From Candidatus Methanoperedens nitratireducens (lineage in GTDB: Archaea > Halobacteriota > Methanosarcinia > Methanosarcinales > Methanoperedenaceae), in the NCBI RefSeq assembly GCF_000685155.1, contig NZ_JMIY01000001.1:169579-203641 (forward strand): a stretch of DNA of 34,063 bases. The letters run 5' to 3'. Below are positions 96-13,774 of the stretch, piece after piece (positions within the stretch are counted from its first letter, which is position 1; the number at the start of each line of letters is the position of its first letter). The notes beneath the pieces are model-generated. The model was not told the DNA's origin and did no database searches. It saw nothing but the letters and a program-made list of their open reading frames with translations. The translations under genes and the position numbers were made by a program.

Positions 96-3000
96 GTTTC
101 AATCCTTGTTTTGTTGGATGTCGCTCTTGAATACTACCCCTTTCCTCGTTCGCTTTAGAACATCTGGTTTCAATCCTTGTTTTGTTGGATGTCGCTCTTG
201 AATAGCGTAACGAGCAAATCGAGCAGGGTAGATAGTGCCGTTTCAATCCTTGTTTTGTTGGATGTCGCTCTTGAATTATAGATAGAACCGAGATCAAAAA
301 TAAGGAAACCAGTTTCAATCCTTGTTTTGTTGGATGTCGCTCTTGAATATTACTGTTGCATTCTTATCTTTCTGAAGCGCCAGGTTTCAATCCTTGTTTT
401 GTTGGATGTCGCTCTTGAATTGTAGTTTATGCATCTTTTGGGGTTCATGCCTCCTGCGTTTCAATCCTTGTTTTGTTGGATGTCGCTCTTGAATAAATAT
501 ACTTCTGCCATTTATATCACCGACTATCTAGTTTCAATCCTTGTTTTGTTGGATGTCGCTCTTGAATCCTGGCCATTCCTGCGGACTCGTTTTTCCCCAA
601 CCAGTTTCAATCCTTGTTTTGTTGGATGTCGCTCTTGAATTGATATGATTCTACTCTTTTCATTTTCTAACATTGAGTTTCAATCCTTGTTTTGTTGGAT
701 GTCGCTCTTGAATTTTATCGAGCAAATGAGCGAACTGTATCCTGATTCGTTTCAATCCTTGTTTTGTTGGATGTCGCTCTTGAATCCATAGCGGAACGGC
801 TAACGCTGCCGTGAAGTATATGTTTCAATCCTTGTTTTGTTGGATGTCGCTCTTGAATCATACCAGGCATGCCTTTACAACCATCCATACACACAAACAA
901 ATTTCGTTTCAATCCTTGTTTTGTTGGATGTCGCTCTTGAATCGGGTTTCCGTGACACTTATTTATATTTATTCATGAGTTTCAATCCTTGTTTTGTTGG
1001 ATGTCGCTCTTGAATCCTGGGAGTGGGGAAAAAACACTAAGACACGTCATTCCGTTTCAATCCTTGTTTTGTTGGATGTCGCTCTTGAATTATGCAGCTT
1101 GGTATTGTTCACCCTCCAAACATTTTGTTTCAATCCTTGTTTTGTTGGATGTCGCTCTTGAATTGCAGTATTGAACAGTGAGTGGAGAAATGTATCTTTA
1201 TGTTTCAATCCTTGTTTTGTTGGATGTCGCTCTTGAATTCCACGCGTGAGGTCATCGCGGCAGGTACCTCGTGTTTCAATCCTTGTTTTGTTGGATGTCG
1301 CTCTTGAATAGATGGATAAGGAGGTTTTAAAAGATGGATAACGAATGTTTCAATCCTTGTTTTGTTGGATGTCGCTCTTGAATAAGCATCCCGTGCTGCG
1401 CAAGGCGGTTGAGCTCGTGTTTCAATCCTTGTTTTGTTGGATGTCGCTCTTGAATTGGATCACCTGCGTATGATGTATGATAGCACTCCCGTTTCAATCC
1501 TTGTTTTGTTGGATGTCGCTCTTGAATGCACATCACATGCCAGGAGTGCGTGAGGGATCTCAGTTTCAATCCTTGTTTTGTTGGATGTCGCTCTTGAATT
1601 CTAGAACCTCAGACATTTAAACGCCAGCCAACAACCTGAGTTTCAATCCTTGTTTTGTTGGATGTCGCTCTTGAATTGGTGCTCATATGTCTTTTCGTGT
1701 GAAATTTGACAGTTTCAATCCTTGTTTTGTTGGATGTCGCTCTTGAATTTGTATAAGGTCTACCTGTTTTTCGACCGATACAGGTTTCAATCCTTGTTTT
1801 GTTGGATGTCGCTCTTGAATTATGGTGCTCATATGTCTTTTCGTGTGAAATTTGATGGTTTCAATCCTTGTTTTGTTGGATGTCGCTCTTGAATAATCCC
1901 ACAGGTTACATACATGCAATAGTATATATATGTTTCAATCCTTGTTTTGTTGGATGTCGCTCTTGAATGCTATGGGAGGTAATGCGGGCTTACCCGCATC
2001 CTTGTTTCAATCCTTGTTTTGTTGGATGTCGCTCTTGAATTCTCCTTTTTCTACAAGTTCTTCCGCCTGTCTTTTGTTTCAATCCTTGTTTTGTTGGATG
2101 TCGCTCTTGAATGCCTCTGCCCTATAGCTTGCAAGCGTCTTGCCGTTGCGTTTCAATCCTTGTTTTGTTGGATGTCGCTCTTGAATTATGGGGAGTGATC
2201 CGACAAGGAAACTTCCATCGAGTTTCAATCCTTGTTTTGTTGGATGTCGCTCTTGAATGTCGCAACGCCCCCGGGGCTACCTTAGCGTATCAGCTTGTTT
2301 CAATCCTTGTTTTGTTGGATGTCGCTCTTGAATAAGGAAAGTCGTTGAGCTGCAGCACAGACTCAGCATGAGTTTCAATCCTTGTTTTGTTGGATGTCGC
2401 TCTTGAATGGCACCGGGGCCGTTGCGACAGCGCAGTAAGACAGCCGTGTTTCAATCCTTGTTTTGTTGGATGTCGCTCTTGAATTAAAAGGTAATTTCCT
2501 GGTAGGATCCCTTACAAGTTTCAATCCTTGTTTTGTTGGATGTCGCTCTTGAATCCAAGAACCGGATCTGCCAAGAACAAGATCTCTAGGTTTCAATCCT
2601 TGTTTTGTTGGATGTCGCTCTTGAATCAACGCATAACGAAACACCTATTATTATCAGGCCCTGTTTCAATCCTTGTTTTGTTGGATGTCGCTCTTGAATG
2701 GTATAACGGCAGATGGAAACTGGAGAATCATAAGTTTCAATCCTTGTTTTGTTGGATGTCGCTCTTGAATTCAGATGCTACATGCGACCTGAAGCCAAAG
2801 AAACTTGGTTTCAATCCTTGTTTTGTTGGATGTCGCTCTTGAATATATGGAAAATCAAGAACCAGAAAACCAGGAAACAGTGTTTCAATCCTTGTTTTGT
2901 TGGATGTCGCTCTTGAATTCATTGAGACTACGATTGCACTATGTCCAAACTGCCCGTTTCAATCCTTGTTTTGTTGGATGTCGCTCTTGAATGCGATACT

Positions 3001-4313
3001 ATAGGAGATTCAGGGCTCAGGGTCTTTAGTTTCAATCCTTGTTTTGTTGGATGTCGCTCTTGAATTAAACGACTTGCGATATTTGTACCACCAGGACAGA
3101 CGGGTTTCAATCCTTGTTTTGTTGGATGTCGCTCTTGAATAGTAGTATCGACAACCCCGGACTTCTCAGCTTTTTCGTTTCAATCCTTGTTTTGTTGGAT
3201 GTCGCTCTTGAATGCGATAGCCTGAAGGATGGTGATATAGACAATATTATGTTTCAATCCTTGTTTTGTTGGATGTCGCTCTTGAATACGCTCCCACAGT
3301 CCTGACATCGTTTATCCCATTTCTGTTTCAATCCTTGTTTTGTTGGATGTCGCTCTTGAATCTTCTCTCTCTGTCTGTAAGAAGCTTCTTTTTTAGTTTC
3401 AATCCTTGTTTTGTTGGATGTCGCTCTTGAATGCGAATGTTGCTATTACGTTAGGGGTAGTGGCTCCAGTTTCAATCCTTGTTTTGTTGGATGTCGCTCT
3501 TGAATCTTTCGGTTCAGGATGTTAGGAATGATTTAGCTATGTTTCAATCCTTGTTTTGTTGGATGTCGCTCTTGAATAATTCGTACTTCGCATAAGGAAC
3601 AGGACTCCCAGACTCCCGAGTTTCAATCCTTGTTTTGTTGGATGTCGCTCTTGAATCTTAAAACGTTATCGAATAAGCCCATGTTAGCACCCTGTTTCAA
3701 TCCTTGTTTTGTTGGATGTCGCTCTTGAATTCAAAAAAAACAGTCCAGACAGATCTATCTAAACAGTTTCAATCCTTGTTTTGTTGGATGTCGCTCTTGA
3801 ATAGGCTGTAATCTTCCCGGTCGGTCTGCTGTGCCTCGGTTTCAATCCTTGTTTTGTTGGATGTCGCTCTTGAATACCATTCAAAAAAGGTTTCGTCTGT
3901 ATGCTACCCAGTTTCAATCCTTGTTTTGTTGGATGTCGCTCTTGAATACTAAACCGTAAATCTAAACGGTCGCCTGTATTTCTGTTTCAATCCTTGTTTT
4001 GTTGGATGTCGCTCTTGAATTCAAAAAGATGGAAGAGGCGCAAAAGGCAGAGAAGGAGTTTCAATCCTTGTTTTGTTGGATGTCGCTCTTGAATGCTGCT
4101 TTTTCTCTTCTAGCTATATCCCTTGCTTTATGTTTCAATCCTTGTTTTGTTGGATGTCGCTCTTGAATCATACGGGTTTTATGCGTAGAAGGATTATAGA
4201 GGGGTGTTTCAATCCTTGTTTTGTTGGATGTCGCTCTTGAATGTGCAGATAGACAGCCAGGTAAGTATTCAGATCAGTTTCAATCCTTGTTTTGTTGGAT
4301 GTCGCTCTTGAAT
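96..4313 (-). CRISPR. Type I-B CRISPR array, 58 repeats and 57 spacers
   Basis: I count 58 copies of a 37-bp repeat starting GTTTCAATCC and ending CTCTTGAAT on the + strand. No mismatch was seen, including in the terminal copies at 96-132 and 4277-4313. Read on the minus strand each repeat ends in ATTGAAAC, the usual 8-nt crRNA 5' handle of type I-B, so transcription and spacer order run from 4313 towards 96. Newest spacers should therefore be near 4313, next to cas4. Spacers are mostly 33-39 nt; outliers are 859-905 (47 nt), 3578-3619 (42 nt) and 1600-1639 (40 nt). The repeat can form a short stem (ATCC/GGAT) just before the presumed Cas6 cut. Spacers 1677-1711 and 1821-1857 share 33 identical bases. 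Short apparent ORFs inside the array are translations of the repeat and are not genes. Confidence 0.98.
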
Positions 4314-4421
4314 AGCACAAATTTTCGCCTATTCAGGGCAAAATAGGCATTATTATACCTTAATTTTTGCGGTTAAAATTCTTACTGCAAAATTATTGAT
4401 TGGTTTATAAGGATAAGAAAA
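4314..4421 (-). promoter_or_regulatory. CRISPR leader with TATA box and repeat-proximal hairpin
   Basis: This A+T-rich 108-bp stretch lies between the cas4 stop codon and the first-transcribed repeat. On the minus strand it carries CCTTATAAACC (TTATAAA core at 4404-4410), a good archaeal TATA box that would start transcription near 4380. A second AGGTATAATA at 4351-4360 is weaker. A perfect 7-bp inverted repeat (GCCTATT at 4327-4333, AATAGGC at 4342-4348, 8-nt loop) lies 13 nt from the repeat, where leader signals for Cas1-Cas2 integration are expected. Leader identity is inferred from repeat polarity and position. Confidence 0.75.
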
Positions 4422-5027
4422 TCACATGCAGATGTTGCTGTAACAGCAATCCAGACATTTATTCTTATTCTTGGTCTTACCTGGATAAAAGCCTTTGTCA
4501 ATGATATCAAGGATCTCATTTATGATCTCGATTCCTCTCTTGAGGTCTTTTTCTGTAAAATTAACCTCTTCAATTCGGTTATTGCTTCTTGTAAAGCATA
4601 TAAACCCTTTTTTAACATTGATATTATAGTTCTCTTGTATCATTATAGCATGCAGGACAAGCTGGAATTTATAGGTCTGATAAATCTTATCCTTGAATTC
4701 TGCGAACTTGTATTCAAAAGGTGCTGCCGTCCCATCATCAAGGAAAAGAACCTCATCCACTATACCTTTAATATGGTTCTTTTTCGATGCGATGAACACA
4801 TTCAGCTCTTTTCTCACAACACCTAACTTCTTCCTCAGGTATTCGGGGTTTGTTATCCGCTTCTGCTCATGTACCTCCCTCCCTTTAAGTACCTTAAAGC
4901 GTGATTCCTCATGCTGCGGGATATCAAGGCAGTGCATAAAATAGATAAAGCGCGGGCAGAAGAGGTACTCAAGCACATCGGAAATATTGATTATCGTATC
5001 CCCGCCTGTCATGGTATCAATACTCAA
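4422..5027 (-). CDS. cas4: CRISPR-associated exonuclease Cas4
   Basis: Cas4 is a RecB-like Fe-S nuclease that trims prespacers and helps select PAM-bearing ends for Cas1-Cas2. The 201-residue protein shows the family pattern: C24 in YLFCPRF, H53 in GREVHE, D91 in GIVDEV, E105 and K107 in FEYK, and a C-terminal Cys cluster (C191, C194, C195, C200) that with C24 can hold a 4Fe-4S cluster. The frame opens with TTG, overlapping the cas2 stop as TTGA. An ATG at 5012 (MTGGDT...) is equally possible and would leave an 11-nt gap; neither has a clear ribosome binding site. It is the last cas gene before the leader, completing a cas1-cas2-cas4 adaptation block. Confidence 0.95.
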   Translation of the reverse strand: MSIDTMTGGDTIINISDVLEYLFCPRFIYFMHCLDIPQHEESRFKVLKGREVHEQKRITNPEYLRKKLGVVRKELNVFIASKKNHIKGIVDEVLFLDDGTAAPFEYKFAEFKDKIYQTYKFQLVLHAIMIQENYNINVKKGFICFTRSNNRIEEVNFTEKDLKRGIEIINEILDIIDKGFYPGKTKNKNKCLDCCYSNICM

Positions 5028-5317
5028 AAGAATTTAGTCAGTACTTCATCGCTAACAAGCTCTTTATCAAAAGCCTGGCCGAGTAGCTTTACCTTCCTGA
5101 AAGACTCATCATCCATAGGGAAAACATATACCGAGTCAACATCAGGATCAATGATCTCTTCGCATTCCAGAGCCAGGGAATCCCTCTCATTCGCATTGAG
5201 CGTACCAAGAAAAACGCTCTTCTGCACGCGGTATAACCCTTTATCAAGGCATATGCGGGCGACCTTACTGCGCGCGCTGTTCTCTACAATATCATAAACT
5301 ACCCATACCATTGTCAT
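5024..5317 (-). CDS. cas2: CRISPR-associated protein Cas2
   Basis: Cas2 is the structural dimer of the Cas1-Cas2 spacer integrase. The 97-residue product has the ferredoxin-like start MTMVWVVYDI with the conserved Asp at D9, followed by ARSKVARICLDKGLYRVQKSVFLG, typical of the family. I chose the ATG at 5317 because AGGAGGG lies 6-7 nt upstream (5324-5330). The open frame runs back to 5362, but that would put an unrelated 15-residue extension before the canonical N terminus. The ribosome binding site overlaps the cas1 stop codon, which indicates translational coupling. Confidence 0.95.
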   Translation of the reverse strand: MTMVWVVYDIVENSARSKVARICLDKGLYRVQKSVFLGTLNANERDSLALECEEIIDPDVDSVYVFPMDDESFRKVKLLGQAFDKELVSDEVLTKFF

Positions 5318-5328
5318 TTTATTCCCTC

Positions 5329-6297
5329 CTATTTTATCAGACCATTGGCTATGCTGTGGCATTCCATCTGGATTGTGTTCCTGATCTTGATATTGCGCCC
5401 TCTGTATTCGATCTCTCTATCAAGGGTCTCATTGACCGCTTTGATCAGCACTGCCTTGCCGTCTTTATTCAGGTACAATCCGCCCGGGATCTTATCGAAC
5501 AGGCCATCATGAACCTGTTTTTTCGAAAAGAGGTTAACAACAGTCCTGTCGATATGTATCCTGAATATCTCTATAAGATCGAACACAAAGGATTTCTTGT
5601 TATAATTGTCGGTATGCAGGAAGCCCATGTAAGGATCAAGCCCTGCAATTATGCACGCTTTCTCAACCTGGGAATACAGGATACCATAGCCGTAGTTGAG
5701 AAGACAGTTGAAGGCATCCTGCGCAGGATTGCGGCTTCGGCCGCTGAACTTCCAGGCATCGGGCATGATGTTGCTCAATGCCTCAAAATACGTAAGGGAT
5801 GCCATACCCTCTGTTCCCATGATCGAGCCGCGCTTCCCATCAAGTGAGCCTCTCATGCTCATCAGGTCATCCTTTAATTGCTCAAGCTTCGAAATATACG
5901 GTGTCAGCATATCATAGGCATCAGGACGGTTCTTTTTCAGGTCTTTTAAGAGAACCGTCTGGTTCTCAAGCTTCTGCACGATCCAGCCGCGCGCCATATT
6001 GAATCCCACAATTGAGGCCCCGGCCTCCAGTTGCCGGCGCCGGATAAGTGTTGTGCTCCCCAGCTTTGAATGCCATACCCTCCCGTACGGGTTACCGTTA
6101 AAATCAAGAAAAACTATGTCGATATTGTTCTCAACCGCGAACTCGATGGCATCTGTAGTGATGGTCGCGGATGTGGTGATAAGTATGCTGTCCACTTTGT
6201 CAGCCGAGACCTCAAGGTTCTTATCATCGTTCTTTACAAGGAAACAGTTCTTTTCCTTCTTGAGATACGCGCCGCGCGTGTTTATTACAAGCTGCAT
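5329..6297 (-). CDS. cas1: CRISPR-associated endonuclease/integrase Cas1
   Basis: Cas1 is the metal-dependent integrase that inserts new spacers at the leader end. The 322-residue protein has a beta-rich N-terminal domain (about 1-85) and an alpha-helical catalytic domain. Likely metal ligands are E163 (GTEGMAS), H228 (GFLHTD) and E243 or D240 (FDLIEIFR). Length and motif spacing are normal for the family. The ATG lies one base after the hepT stop, so cas1 is expressed as part of the same operon as the HepT/MntA pair. It is followed 11 nt later by cas2. Confidence 0.97.
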   Translation of the reverse strand: MQLVINTRGAYLKKEKNCFLVKNDDKNLEVSADKVDSILITTSATITTDAIEFAVENNIDIVFLDFNGNPYGRVWHSKLGSTTLIRRRQLEAGASIVGFNMARGWIVQKLENQTVLLKDLKKNRPDAYDMLTPYISKLEQLKDDLMSMRGSLDGKRGSIMGTEGMASLTYFEALSNIMPDAWKFSGRSRNPAQDAFNCLLNYGYGILYSQVEKACIIAGLDPYMGFLHTDNYNKKSFVFDLIEIFRIHIDRTVVNLFSKKQVHDGLFDKIPGGLYLNKDGKAVLIKAVNETLDREIEYRGRNIKIRNTIQMECHSIANGLIK

Positions 6298-6298
6298 G

Positions 6299-6682
6299 TC
6301 AATACTCTGCTATTTTTACAATGATCCCTTTTAGCTCATCGATTCTTGATAGCGCTTCGTTTATGATATCCATATCGAGGTGGTTATACCTGTGGACAAT
6401 GAAATTCCGCACACCGTTCATCTGCCGTAAAAAATCCGCCTCGCTTGTTGAGAGAATCCCCTCACGGGTGATTCTCTCAATGTTTGTTGCGTCATCCTCG
6501 ACCTTGAGTCCCATATCCCTTATTTTCATGGCTATTATGTCCATCGAGATCTCGATAGCTACCTCAAGTGCATACAGCAAAGCGCGCTCAGTTACTTCAT
6601 CCTCTATCCTGTGGGTTAAAATGAACTCCTCTTCTCTGATGAATCTCTCAAACTTTGAGAGGTATCTGTCTTTTTGAGTCAA
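6299..6682 (-). CDS. hepT: HepT-like HEPN toxin (probable RNase)
   Basis: This 127-residue, mostly alpha-helical HEPN protein carries R92-NFIV-H97-R-Y99, an exact match to the RX4HXY motif of HepT toxins. Arg and His form the RNase site, and the Tyr is the residue that MntA antitoxins AMPylate in characterised pairs. The start is TTG at 6682, supported by AAGGAGG at 6690-6696 and a 7-nt spacer. Its first 35 nt overlap the 3' end of mntA, the usual coupling of this pair. The stop lies one base before the cas1 ATG, so the toxin is locked into the CRISPR operon. Family assignment is firm; a link to CRISPR immunity is inferred only from position. Confidence 0.9.
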   Translation of the reverse strand: MTQKDRYLSKFERFIREEEFILTHRIEDEVTERALLYALEVAIEISMDIIAMKIRDMGLKVEDDATNIERITREGILSTSEADFLRQMNGVRNFIVHRYNHLDMDIINEALSRIDELKGIIVKIAEY

Positions 6683-7109
6683 GCCACTTCCTCCTTGTTT
6701 TTTCCATCTCTGATACTGTGCAAAAACTGTTGTTCATAATCCTGTGCCTCATATCCTCCCATTTTTTTCTGAAACCATACAGATAATAAGAAATCTGGGG
6801 TTCATTACCGAAGATTATCATATATTTCTCGATAACGCCCATCTTAACGTAGAGCGGCAGATCTTCAAATATTTTTACATCATACCTGCCGCCGACTTTT
6901 GTTAATATCCGGGTTAAAACTTTGCGTGTTTTAGGCTTGATGATGCAGATATCTATATCTGAGCGCTCATCAGCAGTACTCCTGGCATATGAACCGTAGA
7001 GTAAAATGCCTTCAACCTCACCGCTTATAAACTCAAATTCCTTCTTCAGTCTGGCAATGAGGGCATCAGGAGATAACTTATCTTTCGCTGGAGCTTTTTT
7101 CTCGCTCAT
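6648..7109 (-). CDS. mntA: MntA-like minimal nucleotidyltransferase antitoxin
   Basis: This 153-residue minimal nucleotidyltransferase has the canonical GSX10DXD motif: G39-S40, then D51-I-D53, with a probable third acidic residue near D77. In characterised HepT/MntA modules MntA neutralises the HEPN toxin by adding AMP to the Tyr of RX4HXY, and that Tyr is present in the neighbouring HepT. I prefer the ATG at 7109 (MSEKKAP...), which forms an ATGA overlap with the cas6 stop. An in-frame GTG at 7121 would add four residues. The C-terminal tail overlaps the start of hepT. The tight coupling on both sides makes this part of the cas operon. Confidence 0.9.
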   Translation of the reverse strand: MSEKKAPAKDKLSPDALIARLKKEFEFISGEVEGILLYGSYARSTADERSDIDICIIKPKTRKVLTRILTKVGGRYDVKIFEDLPLYVKMGVIEKYMIIFGNEPQISYYLYGFRKKWEDMRHRIMNNSFCTVSEMEKTRRKWLDSKRQIPLKV

Positions 7110-7765
7110 GGCTGGCTGCACCCCCTCACAGCGCCGAAACCTCTTGAAACTGATTTCCCTATGCCGAGGTTATCAGGTATCAGGAAGTTGGCGCAGAATC
7201 CTCCTGTGAAGGTCATCATGTTCACATCCTTAAGCCTGTTTTTCCTGATCCTGACCCGGAGATCGCATTTTATCGTACCAGGCACCTGGTAGTCCAGGGA
7301 TTTTGACATGGAGAGCAGGTTCCCGATAAGCGTTTTTCTCAGGAATTCATTTCTCTCATCGCTGCGCAGCCCGTAGTACCTCATATAGTTCTCCTGGTTC
7401 AGCGCCAGCCACGGGGTAGCGAACTCGTACGAATATATCATGTCAGCCAGCCCGAATTCCTGGTTCCTGACAGAAATTCCCTTCTCAACGATCTCATACA
7501 TATCCTCGCCAAGTTTTATTTCATCATATTTATCATAGATCTCTTTTAGAACCCCGGCGCCGTCATTGATGCCGATCACCATTGGCGCGCCGTCTATCAT
7601 CTTGTACTGCACCAGCGGATAACGGTAGATGAGCTTATCGGCGCTGTGCTGGTGGAGCAGGGAGTACTCGTTGAATTTTGTGGCGAAGAAGCCGCGTAAC
7701 TCTGAGGCGGAGGCGCGGATCGGGCGGGAGGAGGCGAGGGTGAGGGTGAAGGTTTTCAGGAGCAT
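7106..7765 (-). CDS. cas6: CRISPR pre-crRNA endonuclease Cas6 (intact copy)
   Basis: Cas6 cleaves the repeat RNA to leave the 8-nt ATTGAAAC handle and may stay with the crRNA. The 219-residue protein has the RAMP fold signature, including the C-terminal glycine-rich loop G201-I-G203...G209-F-G211. H38 and H40 in LLHQHS are candidate catalytic residues. The ATG follows the stop of a truncated upstream cas6 copy by 6 nt, and the gene ends in an ATGA overlap with mntA. Its first 182 nt are duplicated upstream at 8013-8194. The start of the gene is noticeably G+C-rich compared with cas3, cas5, cas7 and cas8b. Confidence 0.95.
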   Translation of the reverse strand: MLLKTFTLTLASSRPIRASASELRGFFATKFNEYSLLHQHSADKLIYRYPLVQYKMIDGAPMVIGINDGAGVLKEIYDKYDEIKLGEDMYEIVEKGISVRNQEFGLADMIYSYEFATPWLALNQENYMRYYGLRSDERNEFLRKTLIGNLLSMSKSLDYQVPGTIKCDLRVRIRKNRLKDVNMMTFTGGFCANFLIPDNLGIGKSVSRGFGAVRGCSQP

Positions 7766-8012
7766 ATCTTTTCACATTTTGAAGCACTTTGGTCTGTTGC
7801 AGCATCCGGCGCCGGGGTTGCGACCCCAGACCCCGGTGAGGCGCCGCTCTTGAGCGGGGTTTTCTATAAGTCGATGGCTGCATGAAAATCTTTTTAGAAT
7901 GCTCGGCGCCACGATAGGGAACTGATGCAGTTTCGGTTTATCGAAAATATAAACCGCAGATGAACGCAGATGAACGCAGATTGGTCGGGTTTTCATGCTC
8001 TCCAAGATGCCC
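7766..8012. other. Unique sequence between the two cas6 copies
   Basis: This segment separates the duplicated 182-bp blocks and matches no Cas6 coding sequence. It contains a G+C-rich dyad (GGCGCC arms with GGGGT/ACCCC inside, about 7807-7846), a small perfect hairpin CCGCTC-TT-GAGCGG just after it, and an interspersed repeat at 7951-7982. The minus-strand frame of the truncated copy stays open across it. Confidence 0.6.
7951..7982 (+). repeat. Interspersed repeat AACCGCAGAT/GAACGCAGAT
   Basis: The sequence has AAACCGCAGA followed by two tandem TGAACGCAGA units and TT. The same end motifs occur in inverted orientation at 14309-14410, where they bracket about 80 bp containing two hairpins. 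Short repeats with this consensus resemble REP/MITE-like elements. The two copies flank the interference gene block in opposite orientation. Confidence 0.6.
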
Positions 8013-8194
8013 GGCGCGCCGTCTATCATCCTGTACTGCGCCAGCGGATAGCGGTGGATGAACCTATCGGCGCTGTGCTGGTGGAGCAGGGAGTACTCGT
8101 TGAATTTTGTGGCGAAGAAGCCGCGTAAAAGCGAAGCCGAGGCGCGGATCGGGTGGGAGGAGGCGAGGGTGAAGGTGAAAATTTGAAGATTCAT
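8013..8194. repeat. Direct repeat unit, partner of 7584-7765
   Basis: The two blocks have the same length (182 bp) and both run from GGCGCGCCGTCTATCAT to the cas6 start codon. They differ at scattered positions and most near the start codon; a central run covering GTGGAGCAGGGAGTACTCGT and its flanks is identical. The divergence shows the duplication is not brand new. Confidence 0.85.
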
Positions 8195-10422
8195 ATTATT
8201 AAACTTGAAACCTGAGTATCTTCTGTAAATTGGGCTCCAATTACACTATCGTATTTCATATCACAAAAGGTAATGTCGCCGTGTTGCTCTTTATGCTTCT
8301 GAATATACCAATAGGGCATTTTTACTTCGTACAATCTGCGCTGTGAAGGGGATGAATTCAATACTTCATCTTTATAAATCAATGGAATTACAGGAACCTG
8401 AAGATATTCAATTTTTCTTGTTGTATCATTTTTATCTTCTCGATTCGGATTATCAAAAATTCCCATGAGTCTTTTTTGTGTTACAGTATATTGCTTACTC
8501 GCATCAACAAAATATTGCGATTTTTCAATTTCAATTCCTGAATAAACATCCTCAACAATTTTAATAAGGTCATTTTCTGTTAATTTTTCTGGGGAAATTT
8601 TGAAAATTTCAAAAGATCGTTCTAATAATTTGCTATCTTCAGGGTCATAAATATTTTTCGATATATCAGATGCTTTGAATATTGATATCCAACTATCTGA
8701 TTTCTCTCGTTTTCGATTAACTCTTCCGGCCCTCTGAACGATTGCATCAGGCGGTGCACACTCACAAAACATCGTATCAAAATCAATATCGAGAGAAACT
8801 TCTACAACTTGAGTAGCAATCAAAAGTTTTTGATTGTCAATATATTTCTCTTTTTCTTTCCTATCTCTTAAGATGAATTTAGAATGATAACACATCGGAT
8901 TTAAATATTCTAATTTTTTGTAAAGCTCCTGACATTTTGCCACATTGTTAACCACAACTAGTGTTTTTGTGCCTCTATTAACTGAATTTTCAATTTCTGA
9001 AATTGCATCATCAATATTTTTATCAATTATTTTATAACTATTTCTGCATGAATTCAATAAAGTTTCATCTCGTATTATATTAACATTTGGAAGGGTTTTT
9101 GAAAACAAGTTAATCAAATACTCTGGCAGAGTTGCGCTCATAAGCATGAAACGCGTTCCTAATTTCGAAAAGTGTTTAATTGATTCGATAATAAGTCCTA
9201 ATGTCCATGAGTCGTATGAATGAATCTCATCGATTATTATTACGCTGTTGGCTGCATTTGCTTCTATCAATGCCCATTTCCCTGAATTAAACCCTGATGT
9301 TAATAACTGATCAATTGTAGCAACAGTTGCTGGTTTAATAAAAGACTTATCAAAAAGGACGTTTCTTACATTCTCAGGATTATCTTCTTCGTCTTGAAAC
9401 ATGAAAGAAGCCGTGGAGTGTGTAAGCCCTACATTTCCTTTGCCAAAATAATCTTCTAATCTCGTAAAAATACTGTTTGCAGTAACCATTGTAGGCAAAA
9501 GATAGATAAGTTTTCCTCCACCCATATTTTGTAAATTATTTAATGCCCATAATAGAGATGCTTCTGTTTTTCCGCTTCCGGTTGGCGCAATCGCAATGAC
9601 ATTACATAAGGTACGACCGCATTCTTCTTGGAATGGTCTAAGGCCATTAAATTTTATTTTTTTCTCTACGCATCGTTTTTCAATCTCTTTAAATAAGTCA
9701 TCAGCATGCGTTTTTAAGGAGTAATTAACATCTATTCCGGCTGATCCATGCCAATCAGCGTAATGGAGGATTGCTTTTAATAGTAAATAGGTGATTCGAA
9801 TTGCCTGTGGGTTTTTATAATCTTCACATATTTTAGTAAAAGCACCATCGTAGCTGATTAATTTAGTAACTTCAACATAAGGGTTACAATTGAGAATCGA
9901 TATTTTTGGAAATGAAAAACCTTCTTTTTCAAAAATTTTTTCAGCCTGTATTATTGCAAGTTTTATTCCTTCATCACAATAATTAGGTTTTTCACTAACA
10001 CCTTCCCTTGAAAATGATTGTAAAATAGGATCTATTTTTTTGTGATGCCCTAAAATTGCTAGAGCCTCAATCGGTAATTTACCAATCAACTGTCCTTCTT
10101 GTTTAAATAAAGCTAAACCACCTAATAAAGCAAAAGGAAAAGATACTAGTTCATGTCTGTAATTTTCCCGTTTATTAAATCGTTCACCTTTTCGCTTTGC
10201 TTGCATCATCCTCTGAAAAGGTTCAATATTTTTACCAATATCATGTAGCACAACCGTTAAAAGTGAGCTTTTTAAAAAACGTTCCTCGCTGAATCCAAAC
10301 TCTTTACATACTCTCTGAATTAGACTCTTTTTAGCTATTACGGTCTCTTTCCAAGCTTTATACGCTGCATTAATGTGAACGTCATATAGTTGATCTGGTT
10401 TAGCCCAAAAAGTAGTGTTCAT
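8191..10422 (-). CDS. cas3: CRISPR-associated helicase/nuclease Cas3
   Basis: Cas3 is recruited by the Cascade R-loop and unwinds and degrades target DNA. The 743-residue protein has an N-terminal HD nuclease domain (H60-D61 in VVLHDIGKN, H90, H126-H127) followed by a superfamily 2 helicase. The helicase shows Walker A APTGSGKT, the DEIH box in IIIDEIHSYD, SATLP, and motif VI QRAGRVNR near the C-terminal third. The HD and helicase domains are fused in one chain and no motif looks broken. The ATG forms ATGA with the cas5 stop, and the gene ends in ATGA with the truncated cas6. It is A+T-rich. Confidence 0.97.
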   Translation of the reverse strand: MNTTFWAKPDQLYDVHINAAYKAWKETVIAKKSLIQRVCKEFGFSEERFLKSSLLTVVLHDIGKNIEPFQRMMQAKRKGERFNKRENYRHELVSFPFALLGGLALFKQEGQLIGKLPIEALAILGHHKKIDPILQSFSREGVSEKPNYCDEGIKLAIIQAEKIFEKEGFSFPKISILNCNPYVEVTKLISYDGAFTKICEDYKNPQAIRITYLLLKAILHYADWHGSAGIDVNYSLKTHADDLFKEIEKRCVEKKIKFNGLRPFQEECGRTLCNVIAIAPTGSGKTEASLLWALNNLQNMGGGKLIYLLPTMVTANSIFTRLEDYFGKGNVGLTHSTASFMFQDEEDNPENVRNVLFDKSFIKPATVATIDQLLTSGFNSGKWALIEANAANSVIIIDEIHSYDSWTLGLIIESIKHFSKLGTRFMLMSATLPEYLINLFSKTLPNVNIIRDETLLNSCRNSYKIIDKNIDDAISEIENSVNRGTKTLVVVNNVAKCQELYKKLEYLNPMCYHSKFILRDRKEKEKYIDNQKLLIATQVVEVSLDIDFDTMFCECAPPDAIVQRAGRVNRKREKSDSWISIFKASDISKNIYDPEDSKLLERSFEIFKISPEKLTENDLIKIVEDVYSGIEIEKSQYFVDASKQYTVTQKRLMGIFDNPNREDKNDTTRKIEYLQVPVIPLIYKDEVLNSSPSQRRLYEVKMPYWYIQKHKEQHGDITFCDMKYDSVIGAQFTEDTQVSSLII

Positions 10423-11159
10423 TGGAGGACAACCTTTTTGCCATCTATGATATAACCCTCAATTGATTTTTCAACAACTATGGGCGTGCTAACAAAAGTA
10501 AATGACTTTCGCTCAATAACTCTCCTTTCATCTCCTTTAAACTCAAATCTTGTTGGTAGAAGAAATACTTGTGGAGTATAGATTGTTTGAGTTATAGGAA
10601 TTAAACTAAAATCAACATCGGGCTTATAGGATTTTGAAACATCTTCAGGTAAAATCGTATACTCAAATTGATTAAGTTTCTCTGCTTGTAATGTTATAAT
10701 GTTAGAGATTGTATAAATCTTGAGAAGATCATCACTATTTCCTGCTGTTAAAGCATAAACCGGTGAGAGCATTGCATTTCTCAATTCTTCAAGAGGGTCG
10801 AGATTGTTAGAGGCGAAATATATTATAAAATCATTATAGCAAAGATATTCACGAATCAAAATACTATAATGTCTGCGGTTTTTTATATCCTCACTTGTAT
10901 AATTTTTTTCCTTACCAGTTAGCTTCCTGTAATTCCAGAGATCTTTCATCATGCCTTTATGTTTACCGTAAATACTAACTAAAATTTCATTTTTATCGGT
11001 ATATTTATGTGCATTTTCTAAGTTCAATCCTAAAGCTGCACCTATCATGCCGATAATTGTTGTTTTTGGTGGTAAAGGTAATGTTTGATGGAAAGTATGT
11101 GTCTCAGGTACACGGAAAGAGGCGGTAATTGCAATCCCTTTAATTGAAAAAAGGAACAT
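10419..11159 (-). CDS. cas5: CRISPR-associated protein Cas5 (type I-B)
   Basis: Cas5 is the RAMP subunit that caps the crRNA 5' handle in Cascade. The 246-residue protein starts with the typical beta strand MFLFSIKGIAITASFR, followed by the conserved LPLPPKTTIIGMIGAALG segment of the Cas5 N-terminal domain. It starts 9 nt after the cas7 stop, with AGGATAGG as a ribosome binding site, and ends in an ATGA overlap with cas3. Since a dedicated cas6 is present, Cas5 is expected to be structural and not the processing nuclease. Confidence 0.93.
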   Translation of the reverse strand: MFLFSIKGIAITASFRVPETHTFHQTLPLPPKTTIIGMIGAALGLNLENAHKYTDKNEILVSIYGKHKGMMKDLWNYRKLTGKEKNYTSEDIKNRRHYSILIREYLCYNDFIIYFASNNLDPLEELRNAMLSPVYALTAGNSDDLLKIYTISNIITLQAEKLNQFEYTILPEDVSKSYKPDVDFSLIPITQTIYTPQVFLLPTRFEFKGDERRVIERKSFTFVSTPIVVEKSIEGYIIDGKKVVLQ

Positions 11160-11168
11160 ACCTATCCT

Positions 11169-12053
11169 CTATACATAATGTTGATCTATCCATTTAGCTA
11201 TTTCATCAAAAGCATCTCCGATAGACTTTGAATTTTCTATATCGCCTATAAAGAAGCCTTTTCGTACCCCAATTACCGAAGATACTATTTCTGAATTGTA
11301 ATCTTTTAAAGTTTCTTTTATCATATCAACATTGAGTTTTTTCCCTTCAACCTGAACACTTTCGAGAAAGATCGGATTCTTGGTTTTAAGAATGGCAGCC
11401 GCAATAAATTTTGGAGAAATATCTGCAAGAAATCGAGTTTGTCTGCCAGATGCCCATAGATTTTTTACTGCTGAAAGTAGGTCTTTTACTCTTGCAGCTT
11501 TTTCTTTATTATCTAAGTCTTTTTCAAATCCATCGCCTGAGCCGACTCTATCAAGTTCGATAAGAATCGTACCTCTGTAAAGACCGGAATGAATTTCAGT
11601 CTCAAATATGTTTGGGTCGCCGCCAGATTTTACACCCATATAATTTGTACCAAAATCAAGATCACCCTGATAAGAATTAAGAGCTATTAAAGGAGACACT
11701 CGAACAACAGAAGTGCGTTTAGTAGCTTTTCCTTTAGTTTTTCCTTCTGCTCCTTCGGTTCCCATATATCCAAACAAATCATCATCAATATACTTATCAG
11801 GTTCTTGTTTAGTCGTAGCTGCTCCTTTTGATATTGATGCAGCAATCCCTTCTGAGAGCGGTCTTCCTAATACTTCCAGTTGATTTCTCAGTGCTCTACG
11901 GACAGCCTGAGAAGAAACATACGGGAATTGTTCTACACCAACTGAAATTTTTTTAATGCTTGATATATTATCTGTTTCTTTATCCGATCCATTTAACGAG
12001 GCAAATGACACCGGCGTTAAATATGTCAATGTCAATGCTTTTGCATTTTTCAT
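11169..12053 (-). CDS. cas7: Cascade backbone Cas7 (Cst2/DevR family)
   Basis: Cas7 polymerises along the crRNA to form the Cascade backbone. The 294-residue protein has the Cst2/DevR-like layout: N-terminal LTLTYLTPVSFASLNGSDKE, the VEQFPYVSSQAVRRALRNQ helix, then a long insertion with DDLFGYMG and TSVVRVSPL, and GRQTRFLADISPKF towards the C terminus. This family is the hallmark of subtype I-B loci of the Tneap kind. The ATG overlaps the cas8b stop as ATGA, and AAGGAGG lies 7-8 nt upstream inside the cas8b coding end. Confidence 0.94.
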   Translation of the reverse strand: MKNAKALTLTYLTPVSFASLNGSDKETDNISSIKKISVGVEQFPYVSSQAVRRALRNQLEVLGRPLSEGIAASISKGAATTKQEPDKYIDDDLFGYMGTEGAEGKTKGKATKRTSVVRVSPLIALNSYQGDLDFGTNYMGVKSGGDPNIFETEIHSGLYRGTILIELDRVGSGDGFEKDLDNKEKAARVKDLLSAVKNLWASGRQTRFLADISPKFIAAAILKTKNPIFLESVQVEGKKLNVDMIKETLKDYNSEIVSSVIGVRKGFFIGDIENSKSIGDAFDEIAKWIDQHYV

Positions 12054-13774
12054 TGTTTTTCCTCCTTGATTTTAATATTAGTATCCGTATTTTGTTCTTT
12101 TCTATTCTCAGCATTGAAAGTATTTAATGCAGCAATCATGCAAAATTGCTTAAATTCAGCAAAATTATCTCCAATAGCCTGTCCTTTATTGTATAAGTCA
12201 GCAGTTACTAATGCTCCATGTTTTATCTGAATTCTATTAATTTCATTAAGAAAATCTTCTTGTTTTCTTGTTTTCCTCAATCTGAAAAGATCTCCTTTGC
12301 CTTTCTTTCCGCTTGGGCCAACACTTTTTCCAATTGTCTTCCCCAAACTAACCGCTGTATCAATTATTTCTTGATTCATTTTGCCTCCATCTTCATTTAA
12401 TATTTTTTCATATAATATAACAAAATCATTTAATTGTCTAATATATTGGATTTTTGATTTATTAATCCTATAAACGTGTTGTTCTACAAGTTCTACGATA
12501 CTTTGCTTTCGTAAAATCCTTTCACATATTCTATTTCTTACAATGGTTTTACTTTCGTTCTTTGGTTGATCAAACTCGATTAAAAGAGTCATTGTGTCGT
12601 TTATACTGATCTTATTTCTTTCAAGGCGATCTAGTAATCTGAATAAATAAACTGAATCCTGAAAAGGCCAGATCATTTTTCCCATTTGTGTATCACCGAG
12701 AGCTTCAGTATACATTACAAAAAATTCAATGGGAGCTTTACAAAGTGTAATATCAAAAAGTTTTTCATAATCAAGTTCGTAATCCTCATCTGTTGAACCT
12801 TTAGAGGTTTTTCTAATCATAACAATTCGGTACAGTGAATACAAAAAAGCAAATAATTGCTCAAATGGTTTCTGAAAATAGCCGCCAAGATTATGCTTGA
12901 AATTTCGAAGTAAATTTTGATCTTCAATTTTAATAGCTCGTAAACTACTAAATATATCATTCATTTTTTCTAAGCTGGATGAATACGGAAAATATATATG
13001 GTAACTGTCATTACTTATCGTATAGAAGCCATTAACAGGTACAAATTTTCCAATAAAATCACATTTCCAGCAGACTTTCTCAGGTCTACCACCGGCTGAG
13101 TTGAATGATAATGCCCCCGAAGAACCAGAAATCATTGGAAAAACTGTACCACCAATCTCACTTAATGAATGTGAATAATCCCCACAAATAAAACATTTTC
13201 CTTTGGGTTTTCCTTTTTTAAAATTTATTTCAACTTTAGGTTGTATTGCATTTGGTCCATCTATAAGTAAACTTGAAGACCCAATTTTTAGGTTATTCTC
13301 AACAAGAAATTTATCAAGTCGCTCTTGTAGATGTGCATAATCAATTGGAAGAATTTCCTTTTTTATTTTCTTTCCAGATTCAATTACCTCTTTTTTCTCA
13401 TATTTTACTTCATCTTTAGTATACCTCGGAGCTTTATTAAAAATCAAACCAGCGATTCCCATCGATTTTACTTTTGGAAATCGAACAAATTTATCCGCTT
13501 TCGAATCATAATAAAATCCAGCGTTCTCCCTTTTTTGTTTATCTGTTGAAGTGTTGTAGTATTGAGATAGCAGAGACTTGTAGGTTTTGTGAAAAAATTT
13601 ATCTAAATTAGATTCAGTTCCTTTGAATAAAACCCCATTATCATTCAATTCTATTTCAACTCCCATTTCTTCGGGATTTTCATCATTAGCAATCCGATAT
13701 AATCCCAATAGTCCCGAATCCATCCAGAAATGATTTAGTTTAGGAAAATTAACTTCTATAAAACCTTCATTCAT
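12050..13774 (-). CDS. cas8b: Cascade large subunit Cas8b (Cst1, CXXC-CXXC type)
   Basis: This is the first gene of the operon, a 574-residue large subunit expected to recognise the PAM and anchor Cas3. The Cst1 family mark is present: C194-FI-C197 and C235-WK-C238, a likely zinc site. The N terminus (FPKLNHFWMDSGLLGLYRI) matches the start seen in Cst1 proteins. The C terminus is Lys/Glu-rich (NRKEQNTDTNIKIKEEKQ). The gene is A+T-rich with many Lys, Asn and Ile codons, unlike the cas6-mntA stretch. The ATG at 13774 has GAGGCG upstream as a weak ribosome binding site. Confidence 0.92.
   Translation of the reverse strand: MNEGFIEVNFPKLNHFWMDSGLLGLYRIANDENPEEMGVEIELNDNGVLFKGTESNLDKFFHKTYKSLLSQYYNTSTDKQKRENAGFYYDSKADKFVRFPKVKSMGIAGLIFNKAPRYTKDEVKYEKKEVIESGKKIKKEILPIDYAHLQERLDKFLVENNLKIGSSSLLIDGPNAIQPKVEINFKKGKPKGKCFICGDYSHSLSEIGGTVFPMISGSSGALSFNSAGGRPEKVCWKCDFIGKFVPVNGFYTISNDSYHIYFPYSSSLEKMNDIFSSLRAIKIEDQNLLRNFKHNLGGYFQKPFEQLFAFLYSLYRIVMIRKTSKGSTDEDYELDYEKLFDITLCKAPIEFFVMYTEALGDTQMGKMIWPFQDSVYLFRLLDRLERNKISINDTMTLLIEFDQPKNESKTIVRNRICERILRKQSIVELVEQHVYRINKSKIQYIRQLNDFVILYEKILNEDGGKMNQEIIDTAVSLGKTIGKSVGPSGKKGKGDLFRLRKTRKQEDFLNEINRIQIKHGALVTADLYNKGQAIGDNFAEFKQFCMIAALNTFNAENRKEQNTDTNIKIKEEKQ

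Follow-up and report, generated by a model that had tools for sequence, protein, structure and literature searches.

The CRISPR locus, its array and a pair of near-identical spacers

The window, which is the whole stretch of 34,063 nucleotides analysed here, lies on contig C1 (169579-203641) of the 3.2 Mb, 10-contig genome of Candidatus Methanoperedens nitratireducens and carries, on the minus strand and in this order, cas8b, cas7, cas5, cas3, a Cas6b fragment, cas6b, a nucleotidyltransferase gene, a HepT-like gene, cas1, cas2, cas4, a leader and a CRISPR array (Table 1). The predicted gene content, with Cas3, Cas5b, Cas7 (Cst2), Cas8b and Cas6b together, identifies the locus as a type I-B CRISPR-Cas system of the Tneap/Cst branch, and the adaptation genes cas1, cas2 and cas4 adjoin the array as they do in type I-B. 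The nearest relatives of its Cas1 are found in Candidatus Methanoperedens and related bins, with a top identity of 89%. Two genes with the composition of a HEPN/MNT toxin-antitoxin pair lie within the cas operon between cas1 and cas6 (6299-7121), one coding for a HepT-like ribonuclease (PF01934) and the other for a nucleotidyltransferase (PF01909). Tandem Cas6b starts are present at 7106-8194, where the full cas6b (7106-7765) is accompanied by a fragment of 140 aa (7772-8194) whose only match is to the beginning of the Cas6b N domain; the arrangement looks as it would after a duplication followed by loss of the frame. The same genome also has a second CRISPR system (L204; C1:498000-517999), which belongs with another Cas1 family (TIGR03641) and holds 74 spacers, parsed in two stretches.

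Table 1. Position and assignment of the CRISPR-Cas features in the window (positions count from the first base of the window).
Feature	Position	Strand	Assignment and remarks
CRISPR array	97..4313	-	58 identical 37-nt repeats, 57 spacers of 33-47 nt
Older spacer, 36th from leader	1677..1711	-	35 nt, TG + shared 33 nt
Unrelated spacer between the pair, 35th	1749..1783	-	
Newer spacer, 34th from leader	1821..1857	-	37 nt, CA + shared 33 nt + TA
Leader	4314..4443	-	Overlaps cas4 end; sets polarity; aligned with nine related loci
cas4	4422..5027	-	TIGR00372, E 6e-45
cas2	5024..5362	-	TIGR01573, E 7.7e-15
cas1	5329..6297	-	TIGR00287, E 5.6e-95; PADLOC Cas1b, E 5.2e-142
cas6 (Cas6b)	7106..7765	-	Pfam Cas6b N and C domains; PADLOC Cas6
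cas3	8191..10422	-	TIGR01587; PADLOC Cas3b, E 1.5e-222
cas5 (I-B)	10419..11159	-	TIGR01895, E 7.7e-17, below its cut-off; PADLOC Cas5b
cas7 (Cst2/DevR, I-B)	11169..12053	-	TIGR02585, E 4.8e-67
cas8b	12050..13774	-	PADLOC Cas8b, E 5.3e-37; weak in Pfam; none in NCBIfam

The repeat reads ATTCAAGAGCGACATCCAACAAAACAAGGATTGAAAC in the crRNA sense, and no copy of it was found elsewhere in the genome at up to three mismatches. Two of the spacers share an identical block of 33 nt. Read in the crRNA direction, one has TG and the other CA at positions 1-2, and at the far end one extends 2 nt further than the other. The coordinates, the 33-base common block and the TG and CA starts given in the first-pass annotation proved exact on recount, as did its statement that the leader-side spacer is two bases longer at the far end (37 against 35 nt); its heading, according to which the two differ only at seed positions 1-2, was right about TG/CA and passed over the 2-nt difference in length, which its own text reported. 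In all other pairings of the 57 spacers, on either strand, matches reach at most 10 nt, and a chance origin of the 33-nt match is impossible because only about 6e-16 such matches are expected. In two of the three open reading frames the change from one spacer to the other consists of a third-position and a first-position transition (codons read by eye), a pattern expected of ordinary drift in a gene.

A further resemblance within the array concerns spacers 28 and 26 (2259-2296 and 2409-2447), which have GTCGCAACG in common in opposite orientation. Both resemble overlapping, opposite-strand stretches of a single site in a related genome (L285, near 247-302; 29/39 positions for spacer 26 and 22/38 for spacer 28), so the two may come from one element family.

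As all 58 repeats are identical within the array, its polarity was taken from related loci. On the cas4 side, the 130 nt ahead of the first repeat can be aligned with the corresponding region of nine related loci. Moreover, none of 36 related arrays (the array of the window included) has a mutated copy among its first three repeats, whereas 12 of the 30 with a complete far end have one among the last three. The conserved leader on the cas4 side and the far-end decay of the repeats therefore place the leader to the right of the array in window coordinates, which makes 1821-1857 the newer spacer and bears out the polarity and order that had been proposed from the sequence; the reverse polarity is ruled out by the same two lines of evidence. 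The differing bases thus adjoin the side on which the type I PAM lies. At the other end, a run of N (L003, 14480-14579) stands directly before base 1 of the window, so that the far end of the array borders an assembly gap, beyond which older parts of the array are possible.

Repeated capture in related arrays

The survey of near-duplicate spacers drew on related archaeal and bacterial arrays, taken from loci that encode either a relative of the window's Cas1 or a member of another Cas1 family in the same phylum; spacers were compared within each array. Ten of the 170 arrays parsed were removed as redundant (more than half of their spacers in common), leaving 160 arrays with 6,540 spacers after the exclusion of spacers longer than 48 nt (77 of 6,617); the short loci L001-L033 and L114-L143 did not enter the final survey. 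Across successive parses the seed word was 14, 12 and 11, the overlap 20 and then 25, and the mismatches allowed up to 8 and then 6. Seventeen haloarchaeal arrays were turned round after a first look at the results, by the rule, which we take to hold, that the haloarchaeal crRNA handle ends in TTGAAGC, and four further arrays were left unoriented.

Exact register at the crRNA 5' end was found in 101 of 105 same-strand near-duplicate pairs (97 of 105 if the 17 haloarchaeal arrays are not turned, in which case L244, L256, L260 and L282 become pairs with an equal far end). Only four same-strand pairs were shifted, and four more pairs lay on opposite strands. The first-pass annotation had regarded the equal register of the window pair as notable on the grounds that slipped acquisition would shift it; the survey does not support that argument, slipping being the exception. 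The in-register pairs comprise 65 that are fully identical, 18 that are identical in the overlap and unequal in length, and 18 with 1-6 mismatches, the window pair among them. An equal start at the crRNA 5' end with a variable far end is thus seen both in the window pair and in the survey; it is the normal signature of repeated capture and does not indicate escape. Targets were captured again unchanged (the 18 length-variant pairs) just as often as in altered form (18 pairs). Re-captures also cluster in time, the members of length-variant pairs lying a median of 3.5 spacers apart and those of mismatched pairs 8.5, compared with about 20 if placement were random; the members of the window pair are 2 spacers apart.

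Two other features of the surveyed loci are recorded here. Spacers 59 and 92 of L071 have the same 33 nt on opposite strands with a one-base shift, as would arise if a capture was flipped or if the target has a PAM on either side. In L079 (Ca. Ethanoperedens), the spacer listed first (near 364) matches the start of cas1 in its own locus at 30 of 36 positions and the start of the L080 cas1 at 32 of 36, and so represents a spacer against a cas1 gene.

Origin of the two spacer versions

The target was sought in several collections, and no protospacer with a PAM was found for either spacer in the viral contigs, genome contigs, phages, plasmids or family genomes searched. At up to three mismatches, the shared 33-mer had no further occurrence in its own genome, which also excludes a copy in the second CRISPR system there, and it was absent from 33 other genomes of the family. 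Exact 18- to 22-mers of the shared block and three frame-degenerate peptide patterns derived from it gave no match in the viral contigs, nor did one exact 22-mer in the genome contigs; the cores of the spacer between the pair (an exact 20-mer) and of the newest spacer were likewise without a match in the viral contigs. Searching the whole array against phages returned weak matches to phages of other organisms (E of at least 0.4 among the matches listed), and against plasmids only two Runella plasmids (70-72% identity in 7-13 pieces), which were taken as matches to the repeats. All 57 spacers compared with 34 family genomes gave, outside their own array, short matches only (best E 0.006).

We consider it likely that one protospacer was captured twice, independently and next to the same PAM, from a mobile element that existed in two sequence variants. 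The 33-nt identity, the equal start and the lengths of 35 and 37 nt speak for independent acquisition and not duplication, as the first-pass annotation had held, and its further claim that the target existed in two versions is in keeping with what the spacers suggest, namely two target variants that would have shared a PAM. Mechanistically, the cut made by Cas4-Cas1-Cas2 would be exact on the PAM-proximal side and ragged on the far side, so that repeated captures would have the same start and unequal lengths. The two captures would have been separated by one other acquisition, and the two PAM-proximal bases would differ because the element changed, or a sister lineage was met, between them.

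How the two versions came about can be read in more than one way. One target or infecting population may have held both of them, as paralogous sites or co-circulating lineages, and been sampled twice with no escape involved, which we regard as a tenable if tentative account. The survey offers the picture of lineage divergence that such an origin presupposes: the mismatches fall in one codon phase in L069 (positions 5, 23, 29 and 35) and in L221 (positions 20, 29 and 35), and these pairs show that targets often simply diverge.

A stronger form of the two-capture explanation is that positions 1-2 of the target mutated under pressure from the older spacer, that the mutant escaped and that it was then captured a second time. 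The order of the spacers is the right one for such a sequence of events, and both differing bases lie inside the type I seed, given as positions 1-5, 7 and 8 in the available part of PMC5071653. Two adjacent changes, however, exceed what escape needs, and escape is unneeded for re-capture since the 18 length-variant re-captures had no change at all. Overall, we judge this course of events possible but less likely than not.

The distribution of mismatches in the 18 changed pairs bears on the same question. Positions 1-8 hold 16 of the 45 mismatches (expected 10.1, p = 0.03), and 11 of the 18 pairs have a mismatch there (p = 0.095); leaving out the window pair reduces these to 14 of 43 mismatches (expected 9.6, p = 0.07) and 10 of 17 pairs (p = 0.15), a weak preference for the seed. 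More favourable to escape are two narrower ranges, both picked after the data had been seen: with the window pair included, positions 1-3 contain 11 of 45 mismatches (expected 3.8, p = 0.0008; neighbouring mismatches depend on each other), and 10 of the 18 pairs are mismatched in positions 1-5 (p = 0.014). Counted by pairs, positions 1-3 are affected in 7 of 18 (p = 0.04), or in 6 of 17 without the window pair (p = 0.09). One of the pairs counted, in L174 (mismatch at position 10), may be an array duplication. In a first look at 45 loci with 1,612 spacers, the pairs with few differences had seemed strongly seed-biased, an impression that weakened with the wider parse and with a second round. 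For the latter a seed prediction had been fixed beforehand, and its two usable pairs gave 0 of 2 mismatches in the seed, a result contrary to the prediction in a sample too small to refute it; the prediction had specified new phyla, whereas the second round stayed in the same phylum and consisted mostly of the other Cas1 family (haloarchaea and others), joined by nine loci from that of the window. Seed enrichment among the changed pairs is thus suggestive at most. Only the pair in L282 resembles that of the window in being mismatched at both positions 1 and 2; most other in-register pairs, unlike it, have their mismatches elsewhere or none.

A broader proposition is that near-duplicate spacers form a usable fossil record of immune escape, in which the bases that change when a protospacer is soon captured again cluster at the PAM-adjacent positions 1-3. 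We think this improbable. If it were true, the clustering in positions 1-3 would mean either that escape mutations concentrate there or that acquisition rewrites that end, and the window pair would be one clear case.

A spacer-repeat unit could also have been duplicated inside the array and one of the copies then mutated. Duplications do occur, as is clear from the 65 fully identical survey pairs and the blocks repeated at one spacing in L074 and L099, but in the present case two substitutions would be required at one end and a 2-nt change in length at the other while 33 central bases and all 58 repeats stayed unmutated, and we hold this origin to be very unlikely. Much the same improbability attaches to an error at the spacer end, by which one target was taken up twice and the first bases of one spacer were altered during trimming or integration: pairs that differ only at or near a terminal base do occur (L103 at position 1, L102 at position 2, and L079 and L240 at the last base of the shorter spacer), but most re-captures are without such a change, and we know of no integration step that rewrites two bases at the PAM end. 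An assembly artefact, in which the consensus blends strain variants of the array, is the least credible, for although the assembly is in 10 contigs and the window starts directly after the run of N, both spacers are well inside one contig stretch with 58 repeats in clean order and differing neighbours.

Two captures from two variants of one element therefore stand as our preferred reading; the pair is genuine, but taken alone it does not demonstrate that an invader mutated to escape. It provides a clean natural example, from an uncultured archaeon that oxidises methane, of the same target being captured repeatedly, and both the order and the polarity are settled. At 36 changed or length-variant in-register pairs per 160 arrays, such cases are frequent enough to be collected across thousands of arrays, and the collected pairs would allow traces of seed escape to be tested for without knowing any virus.

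Comparison with known systems

Escape followed by primed acquisition has already been described for the type I-C system of Legionella pneumophila and the element LME-1 (PMC5071653), a direct precedent for the escape reading of the window pair. As in the window, the Legionella spacer pairs lie in one array and are directed against overlapping target sequence; according to the available part of that article, their older spacer is mismatched in the PAM or seed and the newer one is perfect (PMC5071653). The two cases differ in that the Legionella target has been identified and, for the spacers of another strain (Lens), transformation was used to test whether targeting was lost, whereas the window pair belongs to a type I-B system and consists of spacers alone (PMC5071653).

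The type I-F system of Pectobacterium atrosepticum offers a second comparison. There, acquisition is precise at the PAM end and variable at the PAM-distal end, and interference stimulates capture (PMC5059440). That work, as far as the accessible portion of the article describes it, used experimental plasmids and no natural target variants, unlike the window pair (PMC5059440). The pattern of equal starts and ragged ends that runs through our survey agrees with this type I-F experiment (PMC5059440).
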